IMG/VR virus record: IMGVR_UViG_3300046450_001696
Span: 1-32,441 of that record
Reading direction: 5' to 3' (one strand)
Source of the DNA: a virus
DNA length: 32,441 nt
In this document: positions 24,754-28,981 of the stretch, piece by piece
Numbering within the stretch: the first letter of the stretch is position 1
Layout: each line of letters opens with the position of its first letter
Program-made: the position numbers and the translations under genes
The notes under the pieces: generated by a model
Database searches by the model: none
The model's input: the letters and a program-made list of their open reading frames with translations, nothing else
Told to the model about the DNA's origin: nothing

Positions 24754-25077
24754 ATGTATAGACCCCTCCCAAATGGTATTACAATAGGCCAAAGTAAAAT
24801 AGAAGGTTTAGGTTTAATATCTACAAAAGAGTTTGCAAAAGATGTTGTATTAGGAATTGTTCATATCCGTAATAGAAATTTTCCACACGGGTACATAAGA
24901 ACAGCATTAGGAGCATTTTATAATCATAATGACAATCCAAATTGTAAAGTATTAAACGGCTACTGGCATCAAATACCTGTAAAATACTTGATGACAATTA
25001 AAGATATAAAATCTGGTGATGAACTAACAGCGAAATATACATTATATGAGGTCGAAGAGGACGAATGGACAGATTAA
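24754..25077 (+). CDS. minimal SET-domain protein lysine methyltransferase, 107 aa
   Basis: SET motifs occur in order: IGQSKIEGLGLIST (11-24, the G-x-G SAM-binding turn), AFYNHNDNPNCKV (54-66, the NHS-x-x-PN-C motif that builds the pseudoknot) and IKSGDELTAKYTLY (85-98, G-E-L-T-x-x-Y). The length is close to the Chlorella-virus vSET histone methyltransferase (119 residues), so the whole protein is a bare SET core without pre- or post-SET zinc sites. The target is unknown; it could methylate a phage structural or host protein. It follows the tail gene by nine bases. Confidence 0.82.
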   Translation: MYRPLPNGITIGQSKIEGLGLISTKEFAKDVVLGIVHIRNRNFPHGYIRTALGAFYNHNDNPNCKVLNGYWHQIPVKYLMTIKDIKSGDELTAKYTLYEVEEDEWTD

Positions 25078-25154: not shown

Positions 25155-25248
25155 TGGCTCTGGGGGTAGGATTCGAACCTACACGCCCCTCTGCAAAAGG
25201 GACAATACGTAAACAACGCACCACGTCTACCTGTTTCGTCACCCCAGA
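25155..25248 (-). tRNA. unusual tRNA, Asn-type identity (anticodon GUU) with long variable arm
   Basis: The full fold can be drawn: acceptor TCTGGGG/CCCCAGA (7 bp, U1-A72), discriminator G73, encoded CCA, T-arm GTAGG-TTCGAAT-CCTAC, 3-bp D-stem ACG/CGT with a GGTAG loop, anticodon stem GTGCG/CGTAT with loop TTGTTTA. The anticodon is GUU (Asn). G34, U35, U36 and G73 are the known AsnRS identity set in E. coli, and U1-A72 also matches E. coli tRNA-Asn. However, D-arm spacing and the variable arm (GTCCCT/AGGGGC, 7-nt loop) are those of class II tRNA-Leu, and position 37 is U where a purine is expected. Its 5' end overlaps the stop codon of the zinc-finger gene. Confidence 0.78.
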
Positions 25249-25463
25249 GTCTGTTCTTTTATAAGATGTTCCTCTTGATGTTCTGCAAGTTCATCAAGGT
25301 CGGTAAATGTTTCGTCGCATTCAAAGCAACTAGCAAATCCATATTTTTTATAAAAGTTTTTATCATAAGCAAGTTCTCTTGCTTGTCTTTGTAATTCTTT
25401 TATCAAGTCATGTATCCCAGCTCCGTTTTTATAAATCGGAATTGTTTTATTGCTTGTAATCAT
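25239..25463 (-). CDS. small C2H2 zinc-finger protein, 74 aa
   Basis: The C-terminal half contains a clean C2H2 motif, C-x2-C-x12-H-x3-H (CFECDETF ... LAEHQEEH). The N-terminal half is a basic helix (IKELQRQARELAYDKNFYKK). Such small fingers bind nucleic acid or protein; a link to the adjacent tRNA is possible but not shown. The start ATG overlaps the stop of the synthetase-like gene (25463), and its TGA lies inside the tRNA 5' end, so the tRNA is probably cut from the same transcript. Confidence 0.75.
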   Translation of the reverse strand: MITSNKTIPIYKNGAGIHDLIKELQRQARELAYDKNFYKKYGFASCFECDETFTDLDELAEHQEEHLIKEQTLG

Positions 25464-26335
25464 TACATAAGGCCTGCTTTTTTCATTCCTGCAATCAAGC
25501 GTGTTATTCCTATTCCGCCTCCATACCTAGGTATGAAGTCATGTTTTAAAAATTCTTGAAGTTCTGCTTCTACTCTTTCTTTACCAAAGAGATCATACAA
25601 TAACTCGGCATACCCACCGTCTGATATTGTATGGAATTGATGTCGCATTTGGTCAGGATCAGTACCGCGTTCAGCACTACCGATAGTTTCCATTCCGCCT
25701 ATAATGACATCGCATTTATTAGCAAGTTTTCCAGTTTTTTTCACATCATCTTTACCAAGTTTCATGTTCCAAAAAGGACTTGTTGATTCTGGAAAATATG
25801 TTAGGAAAAATACATCTCCATATTCTTTATACATTTCTTCTTCATGTCCTGCATCTAATTCTGCACCAGTATATTTTGCTAAAACACTTTGATACATTCC
25901 GCCAGGAAAATCTTCAGTATAAGGATTTCTTTCATTTTTTGCTTTGAAACCAAGAAATTTACAAAGATCATTTTCCATTTGAAGAAGATCTTCAAAATTG
26001 CCAGGAGCTTCAAATTCGAACATTGGAAAAATAAGTTCGTGTCTACCTGGAGTTGGATTTTGTTCTTGCCTGTAACTTGTACTAACACAATAACAACCTG
26101 GTAAATCAGGTTTTGTTAGTAATTCATATTCAAGCCACATTTGACCTGTTTGAGGTAGTGGCCATATTTCACCGCTATACGTGTAGGTTGCAACCGTAGT
26201 TGGATCCTCACAAGCGGCTAGTATGCTTAATCTGCTTTGGGTATGTACTTCTTGAAAGTTTAAATTATCGAAAAAGGAACGAAGACGCTTAACCACCGTA
26301 GTAAATTCAACAGGGTTAATAAGTTGTGTAGTCAA
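25463..26335 (-). CDS. AsnRS/AspRS catalytic-core paralogue; probable asparagine synthetase (AS-AR type)
   Basis: A 290-residue class II aminoacyl-tRNA synthetase fold without the N-terminal anticodon-binding domain. Motif 2 is STSYRQEQNPTPGRHE (R89, E91). VFFLTYFPESTSPFWNMK (175-192) and CDVIIGGMETIGSAER (208-223) match AsnRS active-site segments. Motif 3 is RYGGGIGITRL (270-280). Archaeal AS-AR, the AspRS-like ammonia-dependent asparagine synthetase, is about the same length (294). Likely reaction: Asp + ATP + NH3 to Asn. An aminoacylating role with the neighbouring Asn-type tRNA is the main alternative. RBS ACGGAGAA and a late-type box (26362-26369) lie upstream. Confidence 0.82.
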   Translation of the reverse strand: MTTQLINPVEFTTVVKRLRSFFDNLNFQEVHTQSRLSILAACEDPTTVATYTYSGEIWPLPQTGQMWLEYELLTKPDLPGCYCVSTSYRQEQNPTPGRHELIFPMFEFEAPGNFEDLLQMENDLCKFLGFKAKNERNPYTEDFPGGMYQSVLAKYTGAELDAGHEEEMYKEYGDVFFLTYFPESTSPFWNMKLGKDDVKKTGKLANKCDVIIGGMETIGSAERGTDPDQMRHQFHTISDGGYAELLYDLFGKERVEAELQEFLKHDFIPRYGGGIGITRLIAGMKKAGLM

Positions 26336-26360: not shown

Positions 26361-26795
26361 CTATTTATGCCGTGGGTCTAATTTCAGCTCTGTTGTAATT
26401 TCTAAACGTAGTCCATTTGGATCAAAAAAGTAAATGCTATAAATCCAGTCATCGTGATTAGTTGGGCCGATAACATCTATATCGTCCGATTTTAAAAGTT
26501 TGCACCATTTATCAACATCGTCCTTCGTATCTACTTCAAATGCAAAATGCACAATCCAATCATCACAATCAGTAGTTGTACCTTTGCCATCGCCAGTATC
26601 AAAAAAAGCAATATTACTACCGTCATCCATTTCAAAAAAGATATGTTTGTACGGAGCATATTCTCCTGTACTTGGTACATAATCTTTTTCTATAGTATGA
26701 ACAAGAGGCAGATTTAAAATTCCACTATAAAAATCAATTGTTTCTTGCACATTGGCACATTTCCAAGCAAAATGATGCAACCCGTTAATGTGCAT
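26361..26795 (-). CDS. VOC-superfamily metalloenzyme (glyoxalase/dioxygenase type), 144 aa
   Basis: The start is placed at 26795 (MHINGLHHFAW), giving a normal single VOC domain and an 11-base overlap with the previous gene; a longer frame to 26852 would run inside that gene. Candidate metal ligands stand at the usual places: H7 or H8, E55 (HIFFEMDDG), H83 (WIVHFAFEV) and E132 (GLRLEITTE). Two beta-alpha-beta-beta-beta repeats are visible. Members act as glyoxalases, epimerases, resistance proteins or dioxygenases. Coupled expression with an oxidase and the synthetase-like protein suggests a shared small-molecule pathway. Confidence 0.85.
   Translation of the reverse strand: MHINGLHHFAWKCANVQETIDFYSGILNLPLVHTIEKDYVPSTGEYAPYKHIFFEMDDGSNIAFFDTGDGKGTTTDCDDWIVHFAFEVDTKDDVDKWCKLLKSDDIDVIGPTNHDDWIYSIYFFDPNGLRLEITTELKLDPRHK
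26362..26369 (-). promoter_or_regulatory. late-promoter-like CATAAATA before the synthetase-like gene
   Basis: On the minus strand, one mismatch to TATAAATA, 26 nt upstream of the ATG at 26335 and overlapping the end of the VOC gene. It may allow separate late expression of the synthetase-like gene, zinc finger and tRNA. Confidence 0.4.
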
Positions 26796-27546
26796 AGTGT
26801 TCTCGGCTGATACGTTCTTGGTCAAGCCCAACCCAAAACGCTTCGACTCCATTTAACATTTCATTACCTGCTTTAATAAACAAATCCTCATTAAGGTTAT
26901 GTTCATTGTACAATGTGATCATTTCTTCTCTTGTGTGTTCGGCATGTTGTTCTTCTAACTTGTCATGCCATGTAAAAAATCCTAAAGGCAAATTTAAAGA
27001 ATATTTTGTTTTAAATTTTTGTAATCCTGCTATCAAATCTTTCCAAAAGCCGGCCGCCGCCCAATTTTCTACTGCAAAACTTGCACCTGCAGATACATTA
27101 AAATCTTCATTACCATATATTCTAATTAATTCATCACAATAAAATAATGTTGCTGGCGATCCGTGTTTTCGTTTACCTATATCATCAAATGTTAATCCTA
27201 ATGGTTTAGCAAAACTAACTAGCCATTCGAAATGTGCAGATGCAAATCTATATGTTCCTTCATCTACAGAACCATCTTTAAAAGCAACCCCTATTTCATT
27301 TGCTAATACTTCTTTTCCTGCTCTTGCTTCCTCTAAATCTATTGCATTTATAACTTTGTTTAATTGAGCAATAATAAATTGATTTGAAAAAACAGAAAAT
27401 TGTTGGGTAAATTGACGTACATCTTCTAATATTAAATTTGGTGTATGCCTAAACCAACTACAATATTTGTTGTCTATTATAACTGAATGATTAAGTAATT
27501 CATTATCTATTCGTTCTAAAAAATTATCAAGAGGCATACTTGTCAT
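26785..27546 (-). CDS. haem-oxygenase-like di-iron oxidase (HDO) family protein, 253 aa
   Basis: Wholly helical, as for the haem-oxygenase-like fold. Candidate di-iron ligands: E84 (LANEIGVAF), H105/E107 (SAHFEWL), E160 (FAVENWAAAGFW) and H194-x3-E198-x2-H201 (TWHDKLEEQHAEH), the H-x3-D/E-x2-H motif of this family. Known members (UndA, BesC, SznF, CADD) perform oxidative cleavage or hydroxylation of amino acids and fatty acids. It overlaps the upstream membrane-protein gene by 20 bases and the VOC gene by 11, so all three are co-translated. The substrate is unknown; an amino acid or amide is suggested only by the neighbours. Confidence 0.75.
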   Translation of the reverse strand: MTSMPLDNFLERIDNELLNHSVIIDNKYCSWFRHTPNLILEDVRQFTQQFSVFSNQFIIAQLNKVINAIDLEEARAGKEVLANEIGVAFKDGSVDEGTYRFASAHFEWLVSFAKPLGLTFDDIGKRKHGSPATLFYCDELIRIYGNEDFNVSAGASFAVENWAAAGFWKDLIAGLQKFKTKYSLNLPLGFFTWHDKLEEQHAEHTREEMITLYNEHNLNEDLFIKAGNEMLNGVEAFWVGLDQERISREHYAH

Positions 27547-28021: not shown

Positions 28022-28981
28022 ATGAAGACAGTACTAGAATACGTATGGCTCGATGCGAACGAGCATTTACGTAGTAAAACAAAAGTCGCCGATGGCGATA
28101 TTAATAAGTTAGAACTAGTTCCAATTTGGGGTTATGATGGTTCATCAACTGATCAAGCTCCTGGCAACCATTCTGATGTTACATTAACCCCGGTTAAACT
28201 TTATCATAACCCATTCCAGCCATCAGGTTGGCTTGTTATGTGTTCAACTGAAAAGAGAGAAGCCATAACATTTGAAGACTCTGATGATTATTGGTTTGGA
28301 TTTGAACAAGAATACTTTATAACAAATGGTACTGGTAAACCACTAGGCTGGGCAAACGGAGAGCCCGGACCTCAAGGACCATATTACTGTGGTGTAGGTG
28401 CAAGTAAAGTTGCAGGAAGAAAAGTAGTTTCAGATCATATGGATGCATGTATTGATGCAGAGATTGATATCACTGGTACAAACGCTGAAGTTGCTCTTGG
28501 CCAATGGGAATATCAAGTGTTTAGTAAAGGTGCAAAGAATGCCGGTGATGATCTTTGGATGTCACGATATATTTTAGAGAGAGTTGCAGAAGAGCATGGC
28601 TGTGATATTAATATAGAACCTAAACCTATTAAAGGTGATTGGAATGGATCTGGGATGCATACAAACTTTAGCACAAACGAGATGAGAAACGATTCTCAGT
28701 TAGGTGTCTATCATGATATATTAGATAAAATGAAAGCCCGACATGCTGAACACATAGCAGTATATGGAAAAGATAATGATCAAAGATTGACTGGTGAACA
28801 CGAGACAGCATCTATTGATCAGTTTACTTATGGTGAAGGTGATAGAGGTGCAAGTGTGAGAATACCTCTTGAGACAGTTGAGTCTAATTATACAACTGGT
28901 TACTTAGAAGATAGACGACCAGCATCTAATGCCAATCCATATGATATCACAAAAGTTATTATAGATACTATTCAAGCATAA
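28022..28981 (+). CDS. glutamine synthetase, eukaryotic (GSII) type, 319 aa
   Basis: Nearly every GSII block is present: WGYDGSSTDQAPG (N-terminal beta-grasp), WFGFEQEYFI (metal-binding Glu), GPYYCGVGA, IDITGTNAEVALGQWEYQV, GDWNGSGMHTNFST (His/Asn ATP and glutamate site), RLTGEHETASIDQF, RGASVRIP (catalytic Arg) and GYLEDRRPASNANPYD. It joins Glu and ammonia using ATP to make Gln. About 30-40 residues shorter than usual GSII (350-370), lost at the termini, with all active-site blocks kept. AAGGA lies before the ATG. It is divergent from the cassette with the asparagine-synthetase-like gene and followed by its own terminator. GSII in a phage is highly unusual. Confidence 0.95.
   Translation: MKTVLEYVWLDANEHLRSKTKVADGDINKLELVPIWGYDGSSTDQAPGNHSDVTLTPVKLYHNPFQPSGWLVMCSTEKREAITFEDSDDYWFGFEQEYFITNGTGKPLGWANGEPGPQGPYYCGVGASKVAGRKVVSDHMDACIDAEIDITGTNAEVALGQWEYQVFSKGAKNAGDDLWMSRYILERVAEEHGCDINIEPKPIKGDWNGSGMHTNFSTNEMRNDSQLGVYHDILDKMKARHAEHIAVYGKDNDQRLTGEHETASIDQFTYGEGDRGASVRIPLETVESNYTTGYLEDRRPASNANPYDITKVIIDTIQA

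Follow-up and report, generated by a model that had tools for sequence, protein, structure and literature searches.

An AsnRS-like core without an anticodon domain, its partner tRNA in phages and its link to pyrimidine genes

To our knowledge, de novo pyrimidine synthesis is held everywhere to start from carbamoyl phosphate and aspartate, and CarAB, PyrB and PyrC have folds unrelated to that of the protein described here. The gene that encodes it, which we call X, lies in a window of 32,441 nt (IMG/VR virus record IMGVR_UViG_3300046450_001696, positions 1 to 32,441). If X acts as we propose, it would give the same product as CarAB-PyrB-PyrC, dihydroorotate, but as one enzyme for three and with no carbamoyl phosphate. 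With AsnRS (class IIb) it shares the core fold, motifs 2 and 3, an amide site of the E69 type and R223; unlike AsnRS, it has no anticodon domain, carries R270 for His and T278 for Glu as well as C42 and C83, stays far under the AsnRS model cut-offs and is found, in cells, by pyrimidine genes. AS-AR (Pyrococcus, 3p8t) is also a lone AsxRS core of about 290 aa, yet X matches none of its four NCBIfam models and the genes around X point to pyrimidine synthesis. Asn synthesis by ND-AspRS plus GatCAB uses GUU, G73 and U1-A72 (excerpts of PMC9976931), all of them kept in the tRNA that accompanies X in phages, although this Asn-tRNA would feed nucleotide synthesis instead of translation. Finally, the annotated 'tRNA ligase' T4-GC 194 of P-SSM2 and P-SSM7 belongs to the same gene family as X, and P-SSM7 and P-SSM5 each have a tRNA-Asn annotated next to it; the excerpts of PMC3037559 give T4-GC 194 neither a function nor a tRNA link. 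In the open-licence full-text literature we found no report of the pairing of X with a tRNA, nor of an Asn-based pyrimidine route such as the one considered below.

A lone class II core with an AsnRS-type pocket

X (25463..26335, minus strand) encodes 290 aa from a TTG start. The Pfam tRNA-synt_2 domain (PF00152; 8.8e-19) covers residues 12-284 of 290 and hence leaves no room for an N-terminal OB anticodon domain. Most relatives share the same starting point (MTxLIxP), so that the domain is truly absent and not lost to a mis-called start. X is a member of PHROG 29758 (1.8e-103), for which the function is unknown. AsnRS models detect it only far under their cut-off (NF003037, 24 bits vs 414), the family model of AsnA (E. 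coli type) gives no match, and a Pfam scan at E 0.01 returns PF00152 alone.

The structure of X, predicted from 62 sequences (mean pLDDT 89.7, pTM 0.90), has AsnRS 1x54 as its best Foldseek match (E 2.1e-18). Structural Z scores were 27.1 for AsnRS 2xti, 26.0 for AspRS 1b8a, 23.5 for AS-AR (3rex, 3p8t) and 23.3 for EpmA 3a5y. Sequence-profile searches ranked AsnRS first too (2xti, 8.3e-12), with AS-AR at 0.0011.

Active-site residues were compared in an alignment that combines 43 X rows and rows of AsnRS (5), bacterial AspRS (7), archaeal-type AspRS (1), LysRS (4) and EpmA (2), the non-X rows coming from the same genomes, with NCBIfam names checked for nine and the others assigned by length. 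R89, E91, E216 and R279 are common to all groups. R223 is kept in AsnRS and AspRS and replaced by Glu in 4/4 LysRS and 2/2 EpmA rows; an EpmA/LysRS identity was rejected on this difference in the pocket. Position 69 (codon 26129..26131, minus strand), the amide-site residue, is Glu in 43/43 X and 5/5 AsnRS rows and Gln in 7/7 bacterial AspRS rows. Position 68 is Lys in 7/7 bacterial AspRS rows and, among the aligned groups, in AspRS only. Because X has Glu at 69 and no AspRS Lys at 68, its pocket is, as judged from the alignment, of the Asn type. Other positions are peculiar to X: where it has R270, every AsnRS and AspRS row has His, and where it has T278 they have Glu or Asp; C42 is invariant and C83 nearly so.

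The original prediction had described an AsnRS-like core without its anticodon-binding domain, with motifs 2 and 3 intact. Pfam, alignment and structure bear this out: X is a core of the AsxRS family, R89 and E91 (motif 2) and R279 (motif 3) are conserved, and the ATP-binding arginines are intact. It had also singled out an AsnRS-type IIGG segment. Here the region was read correctly but the literal string is a coincidence: the IIGG of X (DVIIGG) is not that of AsnRS, whose EIIGGSQR aligns with ETIGSAER of X.

A tree of 144 rows gathers the 129 X rows into a single clade, which has a very long stem branch and lies next to AsnRS and archaeal-type AspRS; bacterial AspRS falls outside. The tree was built with a quick method and has no AS-AR row (a search of archaeal genomes with the AS-AR models gave 0/60 over cut-off); it leaves out L003, L037, L087 and L146 (the last omitted from A3 as well, for its stop codons), proteins that contain stops or fall short of 245 aa, and near-duplicates, recognised by shared 4-mers. 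Phage and cellular proteins (49 tRNA-linked and 69 cellular rows) showed no fixed difference in the core or active site, and 78 positions are at least 97% identical in both sets.

The partner tRNA in phages

Downstream of X the window encodes a 94-nt tRNA (25155..25248, minus strand), called by ARAGORN as tRNA-Asn(GTT), with U1-A72, G73, an encoded CCA, a long variable arm and the anticodon GUU at 25212..25214 (minus strand). Base 25211, tRNA position 37, is U where a purine would be normal. An ORF of 74 aa with a C2H2-like motif (25239..25463, minus strand) lies between X and the tRNA and overlaps the latter by 10 bases; related ORFs are present in 28/157 viral loci, and it is probably not essential to the pair. 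On the opposite strand the tRNA adjoins a small SET-domain protein of 107 aa (24754-25077).

Relatives of X were found in P-SSM7, P-SSM2, P-SSM5, two megaphages and at least 595 matching stretches of IMG/VR, 80 of which were kept. Of 76 viral contigs that could be judged, 71 have a same-strand tRNA within about 300 nt after X, as detected with ARAGORN and, for tRNAs with very long variable arms, with a covariance model (the remaining four of the 80, L032, L037, L047 and L074, have no downstream DNA to judge). The tRNA was not found downstream of X in L049, L069, L075, L077 and L083, L069 offering only 210 nt. Conversely, a search for the tRNA alone, with a pattern that required U37, had X directly upstream in 74/74 testable contigs among the matches listed (80 contigs, 6 of them too short upstream). 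The two sets share some contigs, so the searches are not fully independent; a second viral scan, which returned mostly the same contigs as the first, is left out of the counts. The named phages give five distinct loci, three with the linked tRNA and two, those of the megaphages, without it. We found no other constant neighbour of X in phages. Three long records where X has no linked tRNA (W01, G071 and W02) encode a tRNA-Asn elsewhere, and the 72-kb record G072 gave no match to the tRNA model. Given at least 595 IMG/VR stretches and linkage of 71/76 and, among the matches listed, 74/74, the association is more than chance, and the Asn-type tRNA first noticed beside X in one phage proves to be a regular companion.

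In P-SSM2 the linked tRNA was the only model match, and excerpts of PMC3037559 give one tRNA as the genome total; the 89.5-kb contig that holds the window phage also has one. As regards P-SSM2 (AY939844.2; L002 3816-3903 and 5828-5913), the tRNA-Asn of GenBank lies about 2 kb from the position found by ARAGORN and the model, where it follows the tRNA ligase gene directly; this GenBank annotation looks displaced.

The cloverleaf is under strong selection: 98.7% of cells are paired, against 71.4% in shuffles, and 17 of 20 pairs show compensatory changes on both sides. Linked tRNAs range from 77 to 111 nt in length. Pair 1-72 is U-A in 36/36 aligned sequences, and among 58 unique linked tRNAs, U1 and G73 are present in all (two cyanophage rows have no encoded CCA) and the anticodon is GUU in 57, the exception being GUC in L076. 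The anticodon loop is laxer. At position 37, 43 of the 58 have U, nine have G and six have A, and position 33 is C or G in five (L017, L022, L057, L082 and L084), while the unlinked tRNAs from these loci keep both U33 (49/49) and a purine at 37 (49/49).

According to excerpts of PMC9976931, bacterial Asn identity is set by the anticodon and G73, and in yeast t6A37 stops the aspartylation of tRNA-Asn; U1-A72 is the determinant for amidation by GatCAB (excerpts of PMC9976931 and PMC4206432). Since U1-A72, G73 and GUU are held while U33 and purine 37 fail, the comparison of sequences shows that the linked tRNA has kept its charging set and let its decoding set slacken. The GUC of L076 on the same acceptor is hard to square with decoding: with its U1-A72, this tRNA, if it were amidated and decoded, would put Asn at Asp codons. 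As for the body of the tRNA, matches to tRNA-Leu and the D-arm hint at a Leu origin, with identity to other tRNAs of about 60% and no clear best match.

Pyrimidine genes near X and missing early steps

A scan of GTDB genomes returned 125 relatives of X, of which 80 were kept, mostly from Patescibacteria, Bacteroidota and Pseudomonadota; by record titles, the genomes span Bacteroidota, Pseudomonadota, Myxococcota, Dependentiae and many Patescibacteria. The linked tRNA is present in four of the 80 loci (L087, L088, L100 and L103), which are definite or likely phage contigs; L087, from a Methylophilaceae MAG, is the window phage (100% identity). The 76 loci that we count as cellular are those without these four, and still include L112, L126 and L135, which fall in phage clades. 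The special tRNA is absent near X in all 76. Elsewhere in ten X genomes, its best match reached 69 bits (72-93 in phages), and 14 such matches that we looked up were 13 tRNA-Leu and one tRNA-Ser.

In part of the cellular loci, pyrimidine genes are found around X. By ORF clustering, with representatives checked by Pfam, ORFs of the OMP decarboxylase/orotate phosphoribosyltransferase type lie near X in 24/76 loci and DHODH-type ORFs in 15/76, so that a neighbour of the pyrD, pyrE or pyrF type is present in 26/76; for a random gene we reckon, roughly, about 1% of loci. In Pasteurella atlantica, for example, pyrF starts 5 nt after X, and an alphaproteobacterial locus (L141) has the order X, pyrF, pyrE-like, pyrD, PRPP synthetase. 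Aureispira (L096) has pyrD upstream of X and a pyrE-pyrF fusion beyond, and further clear cases are Rhodospirillaceae L153, Midichloriaceae L120 and Bandiella L137.

The genomes with X tend to lack the first steps of the pathway. PyrB is over cut-off in 3/58 of them (0/9 and 3/49 in two sets) and CarB in 4/58, compared to 14/14 controls for each. PyrC (TIGR00857) is over cut-off in 0/9 X genomes and 11/14 controls, and matches at any score in 2/9 and 14/14, counts that rest on nine X genomes; the controls for all three enzymes are not X-free relatives of these genomes. The PyrC match of Aureispira falls just short of the cut-off (260.8 vs 279.05). Many X genomes are MAGs, but incomplete assembly alone does not account for the missing PyrB, because large genomes such as Aureispira, of several million bases, lack it too.

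In ten genomes examined for asparagine metabolism (nine with cellular X plus the MAG with the window phage), Asn synthase (PF00733) gave a strong match in seven and a genuine AsnRS was over cut-off in four; given these counts, X is not simply the AsnRS of the cell. We consider it very probable that X acts in pyrimidine synthesis in cells. The MAG holding the window phage, which need not be its host, had no AsnRS over cut-off and no strong Asn synthase match, and may make Asn only on tRNA.

Around phage X, a pyrD, pyrE-like or pyrF-like ORF lies in the fetched DNA of only 12/85 loci. L071 carries pyrD, X, the tRNA and a pyrE-like ORF, all in one direction, and in L022, L024, L025 and L026 the X-tRNA pair is followed, right after the tRNA, by convergent pyrF and pyrE-like ORFs. 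PyrF of L022 passes the TIGR01740 cut-off (107.8 vs 92.3 bits), as does PyrD of L071 that of Pfam DHO_dh (64.3 vs 27). The pyrE-like ORF is short and under the Pfam cut-off, with a sequence motif that we take to be of the PRPP type, and occurs in both P-SSM2 (4.6e-21) and P-SSM7 (2.1e-20). The window has no pyr gene near X, and a search of the whole 89.5-kb contig gave just a weak phosphoribosyltransferase match. It is likely that phage X has the same pyrimidine role as cellular X.

Asparagine as a possible source of dihydroorotate

Of the six atoms in the dihydroorotate ring, asparagine already supplies five in their order (N1, C6, C5, C4 and N3) and misses only C2; dihydroorotate is Asn plus one carbonyl that bridges the alpha-amine and the side-chain amide. 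Our best explanation, to which we give a probability of roughly 0.42, is that X is a metabolic paralog of AsnRS that makes dihydroorotate from Asn, and that the phage tRNA is a dedicated, largely non-decoding Asn carrier. The pyrimidine link of X is strong; the chemistry, the use of bicarbonate, the charger of the tRNA and the transfer of Asn to X are inferred. The enzyme would bind Asn and ATP in the manner of AsnRS and join Asn and bicarbonate into dihydroorotate, replacing CarAB, PyrB and PyrC, after which PyrD, PyrE and PyrF would complete the pathway. For this exact reaction we see about even odds. It could follow either of two routes: the alpha carbamate of Asn might be adenylated and then closed by the amide, or an Asn adenylate or Asn-tRNA ester might yield, with bicarbonate, an N-carboxyanhydride that the side-chain amide would attack at C2, closing the ring. 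In the second route an activated Asn carboxyl would be put to use, and the retention of AsnRS chemistry would make sense.

The phage tRNA would probably be charged by the host, through AsnRS or through non-discriminating AspRS plus GatCAB, and would give its asparagine to X and not to the ribosome. In cells with a pool of free Asn, X would need no tRNA, while a phage whose host has no way to Asn other than on tRNA would have to take it from there; a private tRNA, charged by the host and mostly ignored by the ribosome, could secure the supply. Judging from the genomes, this account would explain why X and the tRNA are paired and why the charging set holds while the decoding set slackens, as well as the GUC variant and the pyr genes. 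Some observations count against this explanation. Cellular X does without the special tRNA and so need not use one, three X genomes keep PyrB and four keep CarB, and conservation of GUU is also expected under decoding. We hold the role of the tRNA as Asn carrier for X as tentative, and the fuller scheme, in which Asn delivered on tRNA is carboxylated at the alpha-amine and cyclised by X in a tRNA-dependent pyrimidine synthesis, as rather doubtful.

The main rival is an orthogonal translation pair, in which X, as a minimal AsnRS, would charge its own tRNA through acceptor and body, and the tRNA would serve Asn codons while the phage infects, out of reach of host control or of tRNA-cutting defences. 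The two-way linkage (71/76, and 74/74 among the matches listed), the retention in X of every AsnRS catalytic residue and the strongly selected cloverleaf all fit, and GUU is held in 57/58 despite X having no anticodon domain to read it. Yet orthologs with the same active site sit by pyrimidine genes in cells that have no such tRNA and lack PyrB and CarB, which, together with a genuine AsnRS in 4/10 genomes, weakens aminoacylation of the tRNA by X; U37 in 43/58, a position 33 other than U in 5/58 and the GUC of L076 are also at odds with decoding. We regard this pair as unlikely. Another unlikely possibility is that X is a pyrimidine enzyme and the tRNA, though charged, serves an end unrelated to it, in regulation, as a decoy for tRNA-cutting defences or as the marker of a travelling cassette. 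That cellular X works without the tRNA agrees with this, as do the phages in which X has no linked tRNA (L049, L069, L075, L077, L083 and the two megaphages), but near-perfect linkage in both directions is hard to ascribe to co-travel, and so is an invariant Asn identity set beside an enzyme with an Asn-type pocket.

The original prediction had compared X to AS-AR. An asparagine synthetase of this type would turn Asp into free Asn with ATP and ammonia, and the tRNA would be a separate helper, and AS-AR is indeed an AsxRS core of the same size with no anticodon domain and a structural Z of 23.5. However, neither X of the window (at E 0.01) nor its ortholog L159 (at 1e-4) matches any of the four AS-AR models, NF005052-NF005055, which true AsnRS rows do match, and the fold, by Z score, seems nearer to AsnRS (27.1). 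The pocket of X is of the AsnRS type, 7/10 genomes already have a strong Asn synthase match, and the missing PyrB and CarB would be left unexplained; we consider the likeness improbable as an identity. Finally, X might load Asp onto the tRNA for amidation by host GatCAB and use in translation. This agrees with the invariant GatCAB determinant U1-A72 (excerpts of PMC9976931 and PMC4206432), but is very improbable with the AspRS Lys absent and the AsnRS Glu present in 43/43 X rows.

Only if the best explanation holds is the system categorically new. If X makes dihydroorotate from Asn, it fills the gap in genomes without PyrB and CarB, gives a function to PHROG 29758, a gene very common in marine phages, and adds another tRNA synthetase turned metabolic enzyme. 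If, further, the tRNA delivers the Asn, the system would represent a second origin of pyrimidines, one without carbamoyl phosphate, and the supply of nucleotides would be a new metabolic use for a charged tRNA. If X and its tRNA were instead an orthogonal AsnRS:tRNA set, it would be a very small natural one, useful for genetic code engineering.

The window and its relatives hold some further features. A short GlnII-like glutamine synthetase (28022-28981, 319 aa, under the model cut-off) was considered as part of the module and dropped, with near-identical copies in 2/157 loci only. At 26361-27546 a VOC-family protein overlaps a CADD/haem-oxygenase-like ORF, a pair also seen in L013 and L018. 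In the 735-kb phage LR756501.1, near 690.6 kb (L497, 5586-5739), we observed two tandem tRNAs with a CTA anticodon, called tRNA-Pyl by ARAGORN, which are possible amber suppressors in this megaphage.
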